From the NCBI RefSeq assembly GCF_040412085.2, contig NZ_CP115920.1:1798001-1862000 (forward strand): a stretch of DNA of 64,000 nt. The letters run 5' to 3'. The notes under the pieces are model-generated. The model had not been told where the DNA came from and searched no databases. It was given only the letters and a program-made list of their open reading frames with translations. Below are positions 31,563 through 63,134 of this stretch, piece after piece (position 1 is the stretch's first letter; every line of letters begins with the position of its first letter). A program made the translations under genes and the position numbers. The stretch comes from Vibrio sp. CB1-14 (GTDB taxonomy: Bacteria; Pseudomonadota; Gammaproteobacteria; Enterobacterales; Vibrionaceae).

Positions 31563-32978
31563 CTAGTAGTTCGCCTCACGCTCAGCCGCTTCTTTATCCC
31601 ATTCTGGCACTACTGTTTCTAAGAAGTGCTTTTTCTCTGCGTTCATCTTATCCATATCCATCCCTAACGCCGCTTGCGCTTTCTCTTTAGTGGAAATGTC
31701 TGGGATCTCGACAGGGTCGGTGATGCCTTTTTTCGCGAGTAAGCGAATCAGTTTTGCACGAGCGTCAGCCGCTTTGTCGACTGATGTACCTAGAATTTCT
31801 AGCGCCATTTCCGGTGCATGCATGTGCACGCCGTGAGATGCGATTGCGTAGTCCCAACGCCACTGCGCATGACGAATATCCGTTAGGATTGGCTTCATTT
31901 CTTCCTCGGTTGCACCTGCATCCCATGCAGCTCCAGCTTCAAAGTGAGCGGCTACGATTTGCTTTTCTGCTGTGAGTTTCATGTTCAGTACTTGTGCTTT
32001 GCGAGTCGATACGATGCCTTGTAGCTGATCTTTGCTCTGAGTATGGCAGTTTGCACAGGTGTCTTCGAAGCGGTCAAACGGGTTACCAACTTTATGATCA
32101 GTATAAACAGTACCATCTTCTTTGGTTACTTTCGGCATATGGCAGTCGACACAAACAACGCCGTTTTTGCCATGGATGCCGTCACGCCAAGTTTCATAGC
32201 CCGGGTGCTGAGCTTTTAGCATAGGCGCTTTAGAGACGGCGTGTTGCCAGTCTTTAAAGTTGAGCGCGTCGTAGTACTGTTCCATCTCTCCAACGGTGGT
32301 GCCCATATCCCAAGGGAATTTCACGGCTTTCGTTGGCCCTGTGAAGTAATACTCAACGTGGCACTGAGCACAAACCGAAGCTTGTTTATCTAAACGCGAT
32401 TGCTCATCAAATTTTTTACCAATTGCTTCAAAGGCGCGTTCAACGTAAGGGCGGGTCAGCGCGAGTTCAGGTTCGCCGTTCTTGAATTTTTCACTGCGGG
32501 TGTCGTGGCAATCTGCACAGCCGATAGGGTTTGAAATTTCAGCGCCTAAACGTGCCCATTTTCCTTCAAAGTATCCGTCTTCGCCGCGCTCATCGATAAC
32601 ACGCGCAACATCCGGGCTTTTACAGCTCCAACAGGCCATTGGCATTGGGCCTGATTTAGGGTCGGTTGGGCCACCCGTTCTAAGTGTTTGACGTACATCA
32701 TCAAGTGCATAGAAGTGTCCACGAGCTTTGTTGTAATCTTTGGCAAAGCCGTAGCCTGCCCATAAGATCACCATGTTAGGATCGTGGGCAAGGGCGTCTT
32801 CGATTTCGACACTCTCGCTCGTTTGTTTCCAAGAATGGTATTGGTCAGGATGGTCTTGTTCGTAGGCCTGATTTCTTGGATCCATTAACTCTTTTTCAGA
32901 GGCAGCAAAAGCGGGCACACTTGCGGTGCCTAATATTGCTAATGCAGCAACGGAACTTATAATCCAGTGCTTGTTCAC
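31563..32978 (-). CDS. nrfA: Periplasmic cytochrome c nitrite reductase (ammonia-forming), catalytic subunit
   Basis: Pentahaem enzyme that reduces nitrite to ammonia with six electrons. It has a signal peptide ending PAFAA, the special active-site haem motif CWSCK (residues 116-120), and four ordinary CxxCH motifs in order: CADCH, CAQCH, CVDCH and CANCH. The Lys-ligated haem requires the NrfEFG-type lyase. I chose GTG 32978 because GGAG lies eight bases upstream; the frame is open to 33023 but lacks start signals. Length 471 fits. It is divergent from nrfBCD, unlike the single E. coli operon, and shares a roughly 500-bp regulatory region with it. Confidence 0.96.
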
Positions 32979-33114
32979 GATGGTATCTCCATATTCTAAT
33001 TTTTGAAATGCGTTGTGGGGCAAATTTCCTAAACAAGATTTGGAGATGTCTAATGATAGACGTATTCATATTAACTCATAGATAGAAATATTTTATTACA
33101 GCTCGACCTATTTA

Positions 33115-33482: not shown

Positions 33483-34076
33483 ATGGGCAATGTTAAATTG
33501 ACCATGGTGATAATGCTTCAGGCTCTCCTAGCATTTACTCTCTGTGGTTATTCACTCAATGCCTTTGCCGACGATGCAGCCCTCGTGCAAGAAGGGGACT
33601 CTACACGGCATAAGGTGGAGTTGATACGTGATAAGGATTACAAATGTATCCAATGTCACAAAGACTCGAAACAAACTCTGGCAGGCTCTCATGGAGAGAA
33701 TGTTATCGAGATCAGAGGTACGGCGCCAAGCTGTACAGACTGTCATAGTAATATCGGCCCAGACCATCGTGATGGCGCGTCGACGGTGATTAAATATCAT
33801 GCTGCACAGTCTCAACCTGGCACAGATAAAACCTGGTTAGATCCAGAAGCCATTCTCAAAGCAAACAGTCGATGTACGGATTGTCATCAACCGCAATATC
33901 TACAAAAAGATAGTTGGACGCATGACGTTCACGCAAAGAATCTAACCTGTACCAATTGTCATTCAGTTCATGCTGAGAAAGCCAAAGTGCTCTCTTACGA
34001 CCACAAAGCAAAAATTAAGATGTGTGTCGATTGCCATAAAGACTTCAACGAAAAACGTGAAGAGGAGGGCAAGTAA
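33483..34076 (+). CDS. nrfB: Pentahaem cytochrome NrfB, electron donor to NrfA
   Basis: Periplasmic c-type cytochrome that passes electrons from the NrfCD quinol dehydrogenase to NrfA. It has a signal peptide ending SLNAFAD and five CxxCH motifs (CIQCH, CTDCH, CTDCH, CTNCH, CVDCH). Length 197 is close to E. coli NrfB. AAGGAAAGGATAAA precedes the ATG. It leads the nrfBCD run; nrfC starts one base after its stop codon. Confidence 0.94.
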   Translation: MGNVKLTMVIMLQALLAFTLCGYSLNAFADDAALVQEGDSTRHKVELIRDKDYKCIQCHKDSKQTLAGSHGENVIEIRGTAPSCTDCHSNIGPDHRDGASTVIKYHAAQSQPGTDKTWLDPEAILKANSRCTDCHQPQYLQKDSWTHDVHAKNLTCTNCHSVHAEKAKVLSYDHKAKIKMCVDCHKDFNEKREEEGK

Positions 34077-34077
34077 T

Positions 34078-34767
34078 ATGAGTTGTTCAAGACGAAATTT
34101 CCTTGCCGGCACGGGCGCAGTGATATTCACCACGGGTGTGGCAACAACTTCAGTCATCACTGCACGTAGTTCAGTGGCAAGTGAAGAAACTGAGAAAGCA
34201 GTGCGTTATGGCATGCTTCATGACGAAAATGCTTGTATTGGCTGTACTGCTTGTACCGATGCCTGTCGTGAGGTCAATAAAGTGCCTGAAGGGGTATCCA
34301 GACTGGAAATCCACCGCTCAGAGCCTATCGGCGAGTACCCTGATGTGGAGTACCGATTCACTCGTGAGTCCTGCCAGCATTGTGAGAACCCTCCTTGTGT
34401 TTATGTGTGTCCAACGGGCGCTGCATACAAAGATGAGAAGACAGGCATTATCGACGTACACAAAGAGAAGTGCGTGGGTTGTGGTTACTGTTTAGCAGCT
34501 TGCCCTTATCAAGTGCGCTTTTTCCACCCTGAGGATCACTCTGCAGACAAATGTAATTTCTGCCGTGATACTAATTTGGCGCAGGGCAAACTGCCGGCAT
34601 GTGTAGAGAGCTGTCCAACCAAGGCATTGGTGTTCGGTGATTTGAATGATCCCAATAGCGATATCAACAAAATGCTGAGCATTAAAGTGATTTATCGCGA
34701 TAAGGAGCATCTAGGCACGAAACCTAAGTTGTTCAAAGCCGCATTCCATAAGGGAGGTGTAGTATGA
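34078..34767 (+). CDS. nrfC: Iron-sulfur subunit of the Nrf quinol dehydrogenase
   Basis: Periplasmic 4x[4Fe-4S] ferredoxin-type protein. It has a Tat signal (SRRNFLAGTGAV) and cysteine clusters CIGCTACTDAC, CQHCENPPCVYVC, CVGCGYCLAAC and CNFC...C. The frame is open upstream, but ATG 34078 sits right after nrfB with GAGGAGGGCAAG as ribosome-binding site. Length 229 fits NrfC. It overlaps nrfD by four bases. Confidence 0.95.
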   Translation: MSCSRRNFLAGTGAVIFTTGVATTSVITARSSVASEETEKAVRYGMLHDENACIGCTACTDACREVNKVPEGVSRLEIHRSEPIGEYPDVEYRFTRESCQHCENPPCVYVCPTGAAYKDEKTGIIDVHKEKCVGCGYCLAACPYQVRFFHPEDHSADKCNFCRDTNLAQGKLPACVESCPTKALVFGDLNDPNSDINKMLSIKVIYRDKEHLGTKPKLFKAAFHKGGVV

Positions 34768-35720
34768 GTACGTGGGAAACAGCCTTTCATTTCGACTCCC
34801 TTGTTTGGGACTGGATCATTGCGATCTATCTTTTCTTGGCAGGCATGTCTGCAGGCTCCGCTCTAATTGCCATTTACCTCAAGCGTAAGGTTATCGAAGG
34901 CGACCCCGCGCAAAACGGCATTATGAAGGCGATGGCTTGGCTCGCGCCTTTTGGCATCATTGTTGGTTTGCTTATTTTGGTATTCCACCTGACCAAACCG
35001 TTAGAGTTCTGGAAAATCATGATTTACTACAACCCATCCTCGGTGATGTCGATGGGTGTCATCTTATTCCAAGTTTATATGGCGGTGTTGTTTGTCTGGA
35101 TTGGTATGATCTTCAGAAAGCCAATCATGGATGTGTTGGGAAGCAAATTCGATTTTGTTGAAACCATTTTGCTCAAGCTTGAGAAAATTGAAAACGGACT
35201 AGAGCTGTTTTTGGGTTTTCTGGCTATCGTATTGGCGGCGTATACGGGCTTCTTACTGTCCGCACTAAAAACGTACCCGATGCTAAATAACCCAGTACTG
35301 CCAATCTTGTTCTTGTTCTCGAGCTTGTCTTCGGGTGCTGCAGCGAGTTTGCTGTTCGGCATTCTAGTGTTCAAAGAAGATTCACATAGCCCAAGCGTGA
35401 AGTGGGTGCACAGCTTTGAGCGTCCAGTGGTGTTGTTTGAGCTGTTTGTGATAGTGACCTTCTTTACTGGCCTTATCTTCAGCGGTGGTCAAAACGAAGT
35501 CGCTGCATGGAGTGCCATCGGCGGTGGTTTTTGGTCTAGCTGGTTCTGGTATGGCGTGATTGGTATCGGGATGTTGTTGCCATTGGCGCTAAACTACTTT
35601 AGCCCAGGAGAAGTGAAGTTGAATCACGGATTTATTCTTGTGGTCACTACTTTGAGTTTGATTGGGGTGTTGATGCTGCGTACGTTTGTTTTGTATGCGG
35701 GGCAGATGACGGTGGTTTAG
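34764..35720 (+). CDS. nrfD: Membrane subunit of the Nrf quinol dehydrogenase
   Basis: Inner-membrane quinol-oxidising subunit of the NrfD/PsrC family, with about eight to nine hydrophobic helices and 318 residues. Typical are FHFDSLVWDWIIAIYLFLAG near the N-terminus, GFLLSALKTYPMLNNPVLPI in the middle and a hydrophobic end. It overlaps nrfC by four bases. Immediately after it starts the 124-bp hairpin array rather than nrfE. Confidence 0.94.
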   Translation: MSTWETAFHFDSLVWDWIIAIYLFLAGMSAGSALIAIYLKRKVIEGDPAQNGIMKAMAWLAPFGIIVGLLILVFHLTKPLEFWKIMIYYNPSSVMSMGVILFQVYMAVLFVWIGMIFRKPIMDVLGSKFDFVETILLKLEKIENGLELFLGFLAIVLAAYTGFLLSALKTYPMLNNPVLPILFLFSSLSSGAAASLLFGILVFKEDSHSPSVKWVHSFERPVVLFELFVIVTFFTGLIFSGGQNEVAAWSAIGGGFWSSWFWYGVIGIGMLLPLALNYFSPGEVKLNHGFILVVTTLSLIGVLMLRTFVLYAGQMTVV

Positions 35721-35750: not shown

Positions 35751-36800
35751 CCGTCATTCCTGCGCAGGCAGGAATCTTCTGGAGGCTTGGTGCACGCTTT
35801 GAGTAGACCCCTGCCTACGCAGGGGTGACGGCTTCTTTAATAGGAATGAGTAGAGAGCACAAGACTCTCAACAACCGTCATTCCTGTGCAGACAGGAATC
35901 TTCTGGAGGCATGGTGCACGCTTTGAGTAGACCCCTGCCTACGCAGGGGTGACGGCTTCTTTAATAGGAATGAGTAGAGAGCACAAGACTCTCAACAACC
36001 GTCATTCCTGTGCAGACAGGAATCTACTGGAGGCTTGGTGCATGCTTTAAGTAGACCCCTGCCTACGCAGGGGTGACGGGTTCTTTAATACGAATGAGTA
36101 GAGAGCACATGACTCTCAACAACCGTCATTCCTGTGCAGACAGGAATCTTCTGAGGGCTTGGTGCACGCTTTGAGTAGCCCCCTGCCTACGCAGGGGTGA
36201 CGGCTTCTTTAATAGGAATGAGTAGAGAGCACAAGACTCTCAACAACCGTCATTCCTGTGCAGACAGGAATTTTCTGGAGGCTTGGTGCACGCTTTGAGT
36301 AGACCCCTGCCTACGCAGGGGTGACGACTTCTTTAATGGGAATGAGTGGAGAGTACAAGACTTTCAACAACCGTCATTCCTGTGCAGACAGGAATCTACT
36401 GGAGGCTTGGTGCACGCTTGAGTAGCCCCCTGCCTACGCAGGGGTGACGGCTTCTTTAATAGGAATGAGTAGAGAGCACAAGACTCTCAACAACCGTCAC
36501 TCCTGTGCAGACAGGAATCTACCGGAGGCTTGGTGCACGCTTTGAGTAGCCCCCTGCCTACGCAGGGGTGACGGCTTCTTTAGTAGGAATGAGTAGAAAG
36601 TACAAGACTCTCAACAACCGTCATTCCTGTGCAGACAGGAATCTACCGGAGGCTTGGTGCATGCTTTAAGTAGACCCCTGCCTACGCAGGGGTGACGGCT
36701 TCTTTAGTAGGAATGAGTAGAGAGTACAAGACTCTCAACAACCGTCATTCCTGTGCAGACAGGAATCTACTGGAGGCTTGGTGCACGCTTTTAATAGGAA
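35751..36800. repeat. Tandem array of 124-bp double-hairpin units inside the nrf gene run
   Basis: Units begin with CCGTCA at 35751, 35875, 35999, 36123, 36247, 36371, 36494, 36618 and 36742. Seven of the eight intervals are 124 bp and one is 123 bp. Each unit holds a first hairpin (ATTCCTG...CAGGAAT), a spacer with GGAGGCTTGGTGCACGC, a second hairpin (CCCCTGCctacGCAGGGG) and TGACGG, which pairs with the CCGTCA at the unit start. A spacer with GAGAG...CTCTC follows. The ninth unit has lost the second hairpin. The arms resemble the REP-like GTCATTCC...GGAATC elements common in proteobacteria. Copies differ by few substitutions, so expansion looks recent. Confidence 0.95.
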
Positions 36801-36812
36801 CCAAATCATTAC

Positions 36813-38792
36813 ATGATCGGCTACATAGGATTATTTACATTAATCACAGTTGCAGTGACGAGCTCATGCGCAGTTTTGCATGGCCTGATTTGTTACGCTA
36901 AGCCTCAGCGTTTCGCTGCGAGTGAAATTAGCCTAAGCCGATTCTTCAGCACAATATCTTTCTTGTTCTCGTTAAGCTCTATTCTAGTATTGGCTTACGC
37001 ATTCGCAGTTGACGATTTCTCTATTCGTTACGTTTCAGACAACTCCAATCAACAACTCCATTTAGGTTACAAACTCGCCGCCACATGGGGTGGACACCAA
37101 GGCTCGATGCTATTTTGGGTGGTGACATTGTCACTTTGGGGTGCGATTATTGCTTGGTCAAAGCCGAAAAACCGTTCAACGAGCTATTCAACGAGTCATG
37201 CAAGCTTGGTCATGCAGTCTATAGTCGCTATCTTCGCTTGGTTTACACTGCTCGCATCGAACCCGTTCGAGTTAAACACGGTCATGCCATTACAAGGTCG
37301 TGATTTGAATCCCATGTTGCAAGATATTGGGCTTATTATCCATCCACCACTACTGTATGTCGGTTATGTTGGATTTGCGTCAGTACTCGCGATGGCTTTG
37401 GGGGCACTACTGTCAAAGCACGTTGATCTAGACTGGATCCCACGTGCACGCATCTTCACTCTGGTAGCATGGCTGTTTTTGACAGCAGGCATCGCTTTAG
37501 GTTCTTGGTGGGCATACTACGAGTTAGGCTGGGGAGGGTGGTGGTTTTGGGATCCGGTTGAAAATGCCTCTTTGCTTCCATGGCTCACCTCTACTGCGTT
37601 ATTGCATACCATGATGGTTGCTCGCAGCAAACAGCTTGTTTTTTGGACTTACTCTCTTGCGTTTATCACTTTCTGTTTGAGTATTCTTGGCACCTTCATT
37701 GTACGCTCTGGGGTGCTGACATCGGTGCATGCGTTTGCCGTCGATCCGACCAAAGGCTTTAGCCTGCTGGCGATTCTAACCTTAGTGTTTGTTCTCGCCT
37801 TTGTCGCTTTAATTGCCAGGGTCGATTCTATCAAGTCGCTCAGTATTACAAACTTGGCGACTAAGCCATTTCTAGTTCTGATTTCAGCTAATTTGTTTGT
37901 ATTGGCTACCGCTGTGGTTGTGTTTGGTACCTTTTACCCGATGGTTTACGAACTTGCAGGACTTGGGAATATTTCGGTTGGTGCTCCGTACTTTAACTTG
38001 TTGTTTGGTCCCATCGCGATAGTGAGCTTATTTGTCATGGGAGCTGTACCGTTTCTTAGCTGGTCGCGTACCAGCCAGAAGTTGAGAATTGGACTGCCCG
38101 TTATGTTGTTGGTTGTTTCACTGATGTTGGCTTTTGTTATCGTGATCTATTGCACCATGCACTATGAGCCAGTCGGCGCGCAGTGGTCGAACTGGGCGCT
38201 CTTTACAGTTTGGGCAAGCCTTTGGGTTCTAATGTCACATATTGCTACAGTCCTCGCCAAAACTAAGCAGACATCGCTGTCGGCATGTATTGCGCACGTT
38301 GGTATTGCGATCGCGGCGTTTGGTTGTGTGATGAATGCTGAGTATTCTTATGAAATCACCAAAAGGCTTGGCCCTGGCAGCCAAGCAGAGTTTGGGGATT
38401 ACCAAGTTACCTACGTTGATACCCATTTATACGTAGGTCGAAACTTTACCGCCGAGCAAGCCGTTATTGAGATCACCGTTCAAGACAACGACCCACATAC
38501 TAGAACCGCCACGCCCGAAAAACGTCACTATTCGGTGCGAGTTATGACCATGACAGAGCCTTCCATGACACCACTGTGGCACGGTGATATTTATATCTCT
38601 TTGGGTGATAAAGTCGATACAACGGATTACGCCGTGCGTATTCAATTCAAAGCGTTTGTTCGTTGGATTTGGTTCGGTGCACTATTGGTGTGTATCTCTG
38701 CATGTACCGTATTGCTGAGATCGTCCAATAATGTGGCAGCTTCAAAAAATGCGTCACTGATATCGTCATTGAGGGAGACTGCGAATGATTGA
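36813..38792 (+). CDS. nrfE: Haem lyase subunit NrfE (CcmF family)
   Basis: Polytopic inner-membrane protein that, with NrfF and NrfG, attaches haem to the CWSCK site of NrfA. The WWD haem-handling motif GWGGWWFWDPVENASLLPW lies near residues 238-256, and ATWGGHQGSMLFWV near residues 89-102. Length 659 and about 15 hydrophobic segments match CcmF/NrfE. The start ATG has no good Shine-Dalgarno; the nearest is AGGAA 13 bases upstream, derived from the repeat array. It overlaps nrfF by eight bases. Confidence 0.93.
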   Translation: MIGYIGLFTLITVAVTSSCAVLHGLICYAKPQRFAASEISLSRFFSTISFLFSLSSILVLAYAFAVDDFSIRYVSDNSNQQLHLGYKLAATWGGHQGSMLFWVVTLSLWGAIIAWSKPKNRSTSYSTSHASLVMQSIVAIFAWFTLLASNPFELNTVMPLQGRDLNPMLQDIGLIIHPPLLYVGYVGFASVLAMALGALLSKHVDLDWIPRARIFTLVAWLFLTAGIALGSWWAYYELGWGGWWFWDPVENASLLPWLTSTALLHTMMVARSKQLVFWTYSLAFITFCLSILGTFIVRSGVLTSVHAFAVDPTKGFSLLAILTLVFVLAFVALIARVDSIKSLSITNLATKPFLVLISANLFVLATAVVVFGTFYPMVYELAGLGNISVGAPYFNLLFGPIAIVSLFVMGAVPFLSWSRTSQKLRIGLPVMLLVVSLMLAFVIVIYCTMHYEPVGAQWSNWALFTVWASLWVLMSHIATVLAKTKQTSLSACIAHVGIAIAAFGCVMNAEYSYEITKRLGPGSQAEFGDYQVTYVDTHLYVGRNFTAEQAVIEITVQDNDPHTRTATPEKRHYSVRVMTMTEPSMTPLWHGDIYISLGDKVDTTDYAVRIQFKAFVRWIWFGALLVCISACTVLLRSSNNVAASKNASLISSLRETAND

Positions 38793-39213
38793 TAAATTGC
38801 GTTTGGCTTTCTCTCCAATCAAGCTGTTGTTTGCACTCTTGCTATGCTCAAGTCATGCATTCGCGACACAAGCCCACTCTGTTGACCTGTTTGAGTTTGA
38901 TACTCCCAAACAGCAGAAGCAAGCTATCGATCTCGCTAAAACCCTTCGTTGTCCCATGTGCCAAAACCAAAACCTGATCGAGTCTAACTCTCCAGTCGCA
39001 AAGGATATCCGATTACGAGTGTTTGAACTGGTCAAATCAGGGAAAAGCAATCAGCAAGTGAAAGACTATATGGTCGATCGTTATGGTGAGCACGTCCTTT
39101 ATCAACCCGCATTAACTGGTAAAAACATTCTCCTTTGGGGAATGCCCATAGTCTTCGCCTTATCACTCGGTGGTTTGATGGTTGTGACTATCCGTCGAAA
39201 TTCCCGCAACTAG
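38785..39213 (+). CDS. nrfF: Haem lyase thiol subunit NrfF (CcmH family)
   Basis: Small periplasmic thiol-disulfide protein anchored by a C-terminal helix, which reduces apocytochrome cysteines for haem attachment. It has a signal peptide, then the family motif LRCPMCQNQNLIESNSPVAK, with the redox pair in RCPMCQ. VKDYMVDRYGEHVLYQP and a final membrane segment (MPIVFALSLGGLMVVTI) follow. Length 142 fits. It overlaps nrfE. No nrfG or thioredoxin-like gene follows. Confidence 0.93.
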   Translation: MIDKLRLAFSPIKLLFALLLCSSHAFATQAHSVDLFEFDTPKQQKQAIDLAKTLRCPMCQNQNLIESNSPVAKDIRLRVFELVKSGKSNQQVKDYMVDRYGEHVLYQPALTGKNILLWGMPIVFALSLGGLMVVTIRRNSRN

Positions 39214-61031: not shown

Positions 61032-63101
61032 ATGGATCAACTCGACGGATTGTTTATGAAAACCCCAGACAAGGGAAAACGTGCCATCTCTTTGATTCAC
61101 TCTTTGAGTGCTATCTTCTTAACAATTATTCTAATTTTTGTCGGCGCGAGTGTACTGAGCACCAATGGCCTTAATCAAGTTAAGCAACAGTTTGACAATT
61201 TATCAGAAAAAGCCCTTCCACTGTCTCTTAATAATGCCGCATTGACGCAAGATGTACTGGAACAAGTAAAACTGCTTAACTATGGTACACAGCTTGAGTC
61301 GACAGAAGAGTTAGAGCAGATCCGCCAACGCATCACGCAGCTTGTCGAGCAAAGTAATCAAAAGGTTGAAAACCTATACGCCATTGCCTCGGAGTTGGGC
61401 AATGCCGTTACACAGGAGCAACGAGAGCTCCTTGGGCAGAAAATTGTTGAACTTCAAAGAAGCACTCAAGCGATTCTGGCATACCAATCGCAAATACTGG
61501 CCATGAGTGCAGATATCGATAAAGAAGTGGCCGGCTTTCGATATGCCATCAGTACGCTTGGTCAAGAAATGAATCGCATCAGCTTGCTGTTTACACAAAA
61601 CAATCCGTCTTCGGCCGATGCCGCTACACGAGTGGTGACGGCTGCTAGTTCTCTAGAGAGCGCATTCTTGATGCTGATGATGCAGACCGATCTGAAAAAG
61701 GCTAATGGCGAATATCGGCAGATGCGCAATCGCTATGCAAGCATCAATTTAGCCTACGATCAGTTTGAAGAGTGGCATCCAGAAATCAGCGAGTTTCCAA
61801 GTTTTACTGCGCCCTATGACATGGTGAAAGCAGGGTTTAAGCAAAGCGGTGTGGTTCGTCAGATCATTGAACGGTTGGAGATTGCGACTATACAGCGTGA
61901 AGAACTCGCCAAAGCCGCTGTGCTGGCAAATGAGACCACGCAGATCTTGTCAGCCATTTCGACAACAGCGGAAGGGCTCATTGATGAGAGCCAATCCGTG
62001 GTAAACAGCACCATTCAAACCAATATTTACACTCTAATCATTACCACAGCCGTGTTAGTGATGGTTGTTTTTGGATTGTTCTTTGGACTGCGCCGCTGGG
62101 TTAATCGCGCACTTAAGAGTATTACTAGGCAGCTAAAACGTTTGGTTGAGCACGACTTAACGGGCGTCGTAGAGCTTTCAGGTCCCTCGGAAATGCGTGA
62201 TATTGCCAGAAAGTTGAATCAGGTTATTGAGTCGACCCATGACTCAATCGAAGTGGTTACCCGTAACTGTGAAACCTTGTACCAAACCGCAGAAATCAGT
62301 CATGGCGCAGCAGAATCGACGCGAAGCAGTTTGCTAGCGCAAAACGAATCTCTCGATAGCATGGTTGCTACAGTGACTCAGTTGGAAGCGTCAATCAAAG
62401 AAATCGCGACCGTGACGACGTCCTCATTTTCTGATTCGCAGCAGGCAGAAGAGTTTGCTTCTCTGGGGCTAAAAGCGGTCGAGGAGAATCAGCAACGTTT
62501 GCATACCCTTGAAACGACACTCGGCAACAATGAAACCTCGATGAATGAGTTGGATGGTAAAGTAAAGCAAATCCAAGAAATGGTCGATATGATCAGTGGT
62601 ATTGCAGACAACACCAACTTGTTAGCGCTCAACGCTGCCATTGAAGCGGCGCGAGCGGGTGAAATGGGACGCGGCTTTGCCGTTGTTGCGGATGAAGTAC
62701 GCAAGCTCGCGAGCGATACCTCAGAGCAAACCACCAATATTCGCCAAATGATGGCTGAGCTGATGGACGCCGCCCAAGATTCGAGACAATCTGTTATCGA
62801 GTCTCGAGCTGAAATGAATCACGCCCTAGATTCTAGTGAGCGAGTCAAAACGTCGTTCTCAGATATTGCGCTGTCTGTGAATCATATTCGAGAACGAGCG
62901 GAGCAAGTATCTGTGGCAACCGAAGAGCAAGAGCGAGCGACAGCAGAAGTAGGGCGCGCCATTGTTCATGTCACCGACCAAGGTGAGCATTCAAATATGC
63001 AGCTTGAGTCTATGGTTGAAAGTGCTGAGCAGGTGGCTGATATCGCAGGCCACCAGCAAGCAATGCTTCACAAGTACGAGCTCAATCGTCTATCCGTTTG
63101 A
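61032..63101 (+). CDS. Methyl-accepting chemotaxis protein with large periplasmic helical sensor
   Basis: 689-residue chemoreceptor of standard topology: membrane helix 1 near residues 22-44 ([20 protein letters not shown]), a long helical periplasmic region to about 330, helix 2 ([20 protein letters not shown]), a HAMP domain ([19 protein letters not shown]) and the signalling hairpin tip ([37 protein letters not shown]). The two start codons (61032 and 61056) both lack a strong Shine-Dalgarno. The ligand is unknown. The closest terminator is not evident. Confidence 0.92.
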
Positions 63102-63134
63102 ACGAACAGCAGTTTAAACGAATAGCGGTTTAAC

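Follow-up and report, generated by a model that had tools for sequence, protein, structure and literature searches.

A BIME-like tandem array of apparent CGTC-type REP palindromes between nrfD and nrfE of Vibrio sp. CB1-14

According to Di Nocera et al. 2013 (PMC3733652), REPs typically occupy intergenic positions where the neighbouring genes converge or share a strand. In the CGTC-1 families described there the CGTC tag stands on the outside of an 8-bp stem with a 4-nt loop, and the palindromes form head-to-head heterodimers with a conserved spacer for which no linked transposase was found. The CCA tail of CGTC REPs is, in the same account, common and not invariant. BIME-2 and the BIMEs of Stenotrophomonas (Nunvar et al. 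2010, PMC2817692) are mosaics of inverted, alternating REPs at regular spacing, whose basic modules follow one another head to tail. Protective structures at the 3' side of a gene may in turn stabilise the upstream segment of an operon, malE-malF being the example given by Dar and Sorek 2018 (PMC5927463), who cite Newbury 1987 for the case. The word Vibrio does not occur in the main texts of the REP papers covered, including PMC3733652 and PMC2817692, nor does the word nrf in the main text of Dar and Sorek. A literature search over titles and the starts of abstracts returned nothing on an nrf array in Vibrio or on a hairpin between nrfD and nrfE; the names NrfD and NrfE in PMC5399841 denote unrelated Neisseria sRNAs, and a RAYT is described within a Vibrio gene cluster in PMC12625758, where the text on the cluster mentions no REP array. 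Among the literature covered, we have thus seen no Vibrio report of an array such as the one described here.

The array and the nrf genes around it

The window, meaning the whole stretch of DNA that was analysed, comprises 64,000 nt of Vibrio sp. CB1-14 (GCF_040412085.2, NZ_CP115920.1, positions 1,798,001-1,862,000 of the forward strand). The features that concern us are the following, in window coordinates.

31563..33023, minus strand: nrfA, nitrite reductase (NCBIfam), divergent from nrfB
33483..34767, plus strand: nrfB and nrfC (NCBIfam, both over the cut-off), the upstream genes of the same run
34764..35720, plus strand: nrfD, quinol dehydrogenase membrane subunit (TIGR03148, 484 bits, over the cut-off)
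35751..36791, plus strand: tandem array, seven full units of 124 bp and one of 123 bp, then a truncated ninth
35752..35830, plus strand: core of unit 1, 79 bp, 96% identical to a 79-nt consensus
35831..35875, plus strand: linker between cores 1 and 2, 45 nt, one of seven such linkers between the eight cores
36742..36791, plus strand: ninth unit, truncated, retaining only the left palindrome and some of the spacer
36813..38792, plus strand: nrfE, haem lyase of the CcmF/NrfE family (TIGR00353, 577 bits, over the cut-off)
38785..39213, plus strand: nrfF (TIGR03147, 147.5 bits against a cut-off of 159.2), overlapping the end of nrfE

The initial annotation of this DNA had placed between nrfD and nrfE eight units, 124 bp long except for one of 123 bp, followed by a truncated ninth, and TRF, a split of the sequence at CCGTCA and the NCBIfam matches confirm this arrangement. 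The matches also bear out its siting of the array inside a same-strand nrfBCD-EF run, with nrfB, nrfC and nrfD before it and nrfE and nrfF after it; nrfE scores 678 bits against TIGR03145 as well, under the cut-off of 927 of that model. Since nrfA is divergent from nrfB, it would belong to a separate transcript. The proposed span of 35751..36800 proved right at its start and slightly too long at its end, as the repeat stops at about 36791. The array begins 30 nt after the end of nrfD and finishes 21 nt before the start of nrfE, within a gap of 1,092 nt that is presumably untranslated.

For 35751-36791 TRF gives a period of 124, 8.4 copies, 94% matches and a score of 1844, which is far above chance; a second row for the same array has a period of 371, 2.8 copies and a score of 1868. 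The units start at 35751, 35875, 35999, 36123, 36247, 36371 (the 123-bp unit), 36494 and 36618, and are pairwise 90-98% identical, with no decay of identity with distance. Tandem repeats are prone to mis-assembly, but the units differ from each other at 2-10% of their positions, which argues against duplication during assembly; moreover, the genome was assembled in three contigs and comparable arrays are present in the assemblies of relatives, so that an artefact is very improbable. Elsewhere in the window there is a short 16-bp tandem repeat of 2.4 copies (63096-63133).

One unit consists of a 79-bp core and a 45-nt linker. The core runs from a CGTC-tagged palindrome (24 nt with its tag) through a 31-nt spacer to an inverted palindrome ending in GACG, and each palindrome has an 8-bp stem and a 4-nt loop. 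Because the left palindrome, of an ATTCC type, and the right one, of an ACCCC type, differ in their stems, the core is a heterodimer with its tags outside. When folded as one long hairpin, the whole core has a predicted minimum free energy of -36 to -48 kcal/mol, whereas two separate hairpins give -22 to -28. The two hairpins per unit that had been noted earlier are present, but the accompanying figure of 17 stem-loops counts possible small hairpins only; as one long hairpin folds better than two small ones, the RNA more likely forms eight long hairpins and one small one. No terminator-like or promoter-like site was found within 35751-36791, where no stem is followed by a run of T as in an intrinsic terminator, and a comparison of the array with Rfam gave a match at chance level only.

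A dispersed repeat family of the CGTC type

The form of the unit 1 core is also found dispersed in the genome. Its palindrome pattern, with up to two mismatches, occurs at 113 places (none for a reversed control), and the 79-bp core is present both singly and in arrays, so that the unit belongs to other loci as well as to nrf. The other arrays of this genome contain 4.3 units of 127 bp, 4.6 of 135 bp, 2.7 of 141 bp and 2.8 of 112 bp (L004-L007), that of L005 lying between genes for chorismate synthase and an EF-Tu/EF-G-type GTPase. In V. mediterranei we found arrays of 9.7 x 215, 10.9 x 170, 12.4 x 120, 6.3 x 119 and 3.0 x 110 bp. The suggestion that a long array within an operon is a rarity finds no support, and neither does a restriction to this operon, since arrays lie at unrelated loci and some of those in V. 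mediterranei are longer. The nrf array is the longest of its own genome among the arrays compared and is not the longest of its kind. The 79-nt core was matched (E <=0.001) in 20 of 227 genomes of the genus Vibrio, some over one palindrome only, and the numbers of matches per genome are lower bounds because few candidates per genome were scored.

Several of these loci are worth recording for themselves. The 9.7 units of 215 bp in V. mediterranei (L188:2390-4483) lie in a gap of 2.3 kb that separates a cpoB-like gene and nadA, both on the same strand. The period of the 12.4 units of 120 bp (L190:2100-3584) is divisible by three; an open frame of some 393 codons, likely a spurious ORF, extends through them. 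In CB1-14, an element at L027:1501-1611 lies between genes for RNase PH and a phosphoribosyltransferase, probably rph-pyrE, which in E. coli is a known attenuator site.

Taken together, the sequence features assign the array to an already described kind of repeat, a BIME-like mosaic of CGTC-type REPs, since its core is made of two inverted palindromes with CGTC tags outside. Among 82 distinct hairpins from loci of this genome, with every palindrome entered in both orientations, CGTC stands at 69 of 164 feet and TGTC at 8. With the CGTC-1 REPs of PMC3733652 the array shares the outer tag, the 8-bp stem, the 4-nt loop, the head-to-head heterodimer with a conserved spacer and the apparent lack of a linked transposase. 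The siting is likewise similar: of 26 distinct loci, 12 are flanked by convergent genes, 13 by same-strand genes and 1 by divergent genes (plain ORF caller; 27 rows, of which L009 repeats L005). The differences concern the tail, the stem and the clustering. The far foot of the 82 hairpins is mostly GTAG (CTAC, in 46), GAAG (CTTC, in 15) or CAAG (CTTG, in 6), in place of the CCA tail that is usual in PMC3733652. The second stem pair is T-A in 51/78 and C-G in 25/78 hairpins, in a search that imposed a 4-nt loop, seven further stem positions and a 3' T, and so agrees only in part with the AT that the CGTC-1 family of PMC3733652 has in the first two positions. Clusters are common here, while that account finds them rarely in CGTC families, Neisseriae and Wolbachia being the exceptions. 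With CGTC at one foot and often GTAG, GAAG or CAAG at the other, many of the hairpins bear marks of both REP super-families, although a GTAG foot is by itself no proof that GTAG is used, because the spacer is inherited.

The likeness to BIME-2 and the Stenotrophomonas BIMEs (PMC2817692) lies in the alternating orientation and regular spacing of the REPs, in the tandem, head-to-tail modules, in linkers that differ between arrays and in matched stem changes. In the 78 context-distinct hairpins from loci of the own genome, each of stem pairs 2, 3 and 8 is of the Watson-Crick type 76 times, whereas independence of the two sides would predict 43, 40 and 48; the search admitted only pyrimidine-purine at these pairs. 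Unlike the linkers in PMC2817692, between which that paper describes no homology, those of different arrays are partly alike here, and a 30-31-nt linker form recurs across different arrays. The idea that linkers are purely local DNA was only partly supported: the own flank fits best in 10/15 arrays, some flanks, including that of the window, hold a partial unit, and linkers resemble each other across arrays.

A further difference from the BIMEs of PMC2817692 is that the array does not consist of GTAG REPs belonging to a resident RAYT; no RAYT gene was found flanked by its palindromes. The genome has a single gene for a RAYT-like Y1 transposase, of 279 aa (C1:2726479-2727315; L033:1426-2265), and no array palindrome lies beside it, so that the arrangement of a REPIN, a RAYT gene flanked by the same REP, was not found; as with CGTC-tagged REPs, none of the RAYT-like genes looked at is physically linked to the repeat. 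About 740 bp upstream of the gene, with an ORF between, is a different palindrome pair (L033:628-685), one arm of which starts with GTAG. None of 11 RAYT homologues has CGTCAnnCC beside it, the one match (L206:3601) being about 1.3 kb downstream. RAYT and REP do occur together in 8 genomes against 2.1 expected (REP in 20 and RAYT in 24 of 227; hypergeometric P 2.6e-4). Some of these carriers are close kin, several of them among the closest relatives by nrfD; some of the REP matches extend over a single palindrome; and of 10 REP-carrying genomes tested, 6 lack any Y1_Tnp match. For these reasons, and with no array palindrome adjoining the gene, we do not claim RAYT as the mover despite the co-occurrence. 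Two IS200-like transposase gene copies with equal Pfam scores lie 15 kb apart on the smallest contig, C3 (L031, L032). At three sites compared with relatives (L023, L025, L029) we saw turned-over intergenic DNA and no clean target-site duplication of the kind that marks single copies of a MITE. The element of L019 is also carried by one V. maritimus genome, but neither another genome of that species nor V. variabilis has it.

Binding of gyrase, IHF or DNA polymerase I is a characteristic of BIMEs. The architecture of the array also raises the possibility of an element acting at the level of DNA, a docking array for gyrase or IHF that manages supercoiling like the BIMEs of E. coli. Nunvar et al. 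(PMC2817692) describe strong gyrase binding for BIME-2 and atypical BIMEs, and an interaction of IHF with the inter-REP sequence of BIME-1. In our scan, none of the 109 IHF-like matches in the window (up to one mismatch; 83 expected by chance) lies inside 35751-36791, which leaves the IHF binding suggested at the outset without a candidate site in the array; one match lies 8 nt after the array and before nrfE (36799-36811, one mismatch). The pattern was written from the generally known IHF consensus. We found no support for binding of gyrase or IHF by the array, and a DNA-level role is improbable.

The nrfD-nrfE junction in relatives

The nrfD loci compared were those of the best 80 of 113 relatives, in named genomes. 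An array at nrf is present in none of these 80, and the longest gap among them is 246 nt. V. maritimus and V. variabilis, which are 90-93% identical to CB1-14 upstream of the gap and 88% downstream of it, have a gap of 122-139 nt of different sequence with strongly folding hairpins. When the CB1-14 genome is searched with the V. maritimus gap, the end of nrfD alone is matched. The idea that the native hairpin is itself a dispersed REP finds no support for V. maritimus, where it is single copy, and the case is weak for the V. mediterranei form, with one exact match and three with one mismatch.

Where a gap exists, folding of the junction is common. The start of nrfE is clear in 73/80 loci, and 22 of these 73 have gaps of <40 nt, which could not accommodate such hairpins and were left unfolded. 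Against single-base shuffles, 40 of the remaining 51 gaps have a folding z below -2, and 43 contain a stem whose z exceeds 2. In an overlapping but different set, gaps of 40-250 nt called with a plain ORF caller at the same 80 loci, the median z of the 46 nrfD-nrfE gaps is -4.1. The corresponding medians are -0.84 for the other same-strand gaps (n = 83), -3.7 for convergent gaps (n = 44) and -0.15 for divergent gaps (n = 18). With related gap sequences collapsed into clusters (Vibrionaceae and kin, 40-250 nt), 19/23 nrfD-nrfE clusters fall below z -2, compared with 9/39 for other same-strand gaps (Fisher P 6e-6) and 16/21 for convergent ones. As the nrfD-nrfE gaps fold as well as convergent gaps do, the junction, where it has a gap, folds like the end of a transcription unit although it is inside the run. 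The strong hairpins that recur there (L034-L113) are unrelated in sequence across Vibrionaceae and kin.

A hairpin is not required for nrf function, judging from the short gaps and from E. coli K-12, whose 79-nt nrfD-nrfE gap folds no better than shuffles (z +0.38). In ten sequences of the V. splendidus group the helices pair in 98.6% of cells, with covariation not above shuffles. In the V. mediterranei group (V. mediterranei, V. variabilis, V. barjaei, V. thalassae and two V. maritimus genomes) there are 9 cells with changes on both sides, a number reached by 0/500 shuffles, and a score measure also beats all 500; 4 pairs changed on both sides (reached by 90/500), and the count of pair types is reached by 480/500. 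These six sequences fall in two clades, so that the covariation represents few events. The array thus occupies a place at which hairpins are usual, and the one that close relatives have there is missing.

These comparisons bear on a neutral or selfish reading, in which the repeat expanded by chance, nrfEF is expressed by read-through or from its own promoter, and nothing is visible to selection. The nrf array is confined to this genome against the 80 other loci, this genome and V. mediterranei carry arrays at unrelated loci too, and the element shows no orientation bias relative to transcription (6 versus 6 same-strand loci including the nrf array, 2 unscored, by hand count), so that selection for one RNA form is not evident. 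However, many relatives have hairpins at the junction, and a 1,092-nt gap with eight stable hairpins would be unlikely to leave transcription or decay untouched. Because arrays lie at many other loci the neutral reading remains strong, and we regard it as a real possibility, if not a probable one.

Possible consequences for nrf expression

The explanation that we favour, and consider fairly probable, is that a REP dimer inserted at the junction, replaced the native hairpin and expanded, and that the resulting array protects nrfBCD mRNA and lowers nrfEF. A dimer of two inverted palindromes would have arrived in the nrfD-nrfE gap and taken the place of the hairpin region seen there in close relatives, and head-to-tail expansion of the dimer together with its linker, perhaps by recombination, slippage or a transposase, would then have produced the 8.4 units. 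Every transcribed unit would fold into a long hairpin; these hairpins may block 3'-5' exonucleases, allowing nrfBCD mRNA to outlast nrfEF mRNA, and the long gap may further reduce expression of nrfEF downstream. We infer the order of insertion and expansion, as well as every effect on the RNA. NrfEF serve to assemble the enzyme, and smaller amounts of them would suffice. Differential expression of nrfBCD and nrfEF is plausible, given that clusters of nrfD-nrfE gaps fold better than shuffles, and the recurrent structure agrees with the initial suggestion of a part in the nrfBCD:nrfEF ratio. The array resembles the protective hairpin of malE-malF (PMC5927463) in placing a stable RNA structure directly 3' of an upstream operon gene, although it offers eight long predicted hairpins where malE-malF has a single protective element.

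Alternatively, most nrfBCD transcripts could end within the array, with nrfEF served by a separate promoter. Such a block would be Rho-dependent, as there is no intrinsic site, and the array contains neither a terminator-like nor a promoter-like sequence that would assist it. Stable RNA structure would also tend to hinder the loading of Rho. The long, presumably untranslated gap speaks for termination, as does the T-rich foot at the best stem in 24/46 gaps of relatives, which was scored by a crude rule with no background. REPs are said by Nunvar et al. (PMC2817692) to facilitate Rho-dependent termination. On balance we think a block of this kind unlikely.

A bolder extension of the protection model is that in Vibrionaceae the RNA of the nrfD-nrfE junction keeps a structure while its sequence is free to vary, so that unrelated hairpins have evolved or been acquired there, the REP array replacing the native one, with the copy number acting as a dial for the nrfBCD:nrfEF ratio. 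We put this forward tentatively and rather doubt it; for a selected role of array length we found no support.

The array extends CGTC-type REPs and BIME-like arrays to Vibrio, and the presence of CGTC and often GTAG feet bears on the relation of the two REP super-families, a matter left open in the text of PMC3733652. We regard as the most useful outcome the recognition of a hairpin-prone junction that is now occupied by an array, and it is in this occupation that the interest of the array lies. One operon junction offers a comparison between a native hairpin, a REP array and almost no gap, and it would be a place to measure the old claim that intercistronic hairpins set the stoichiometry of operons. 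If it is true that the junction stays structured, the array would be a natural replacement experiment.
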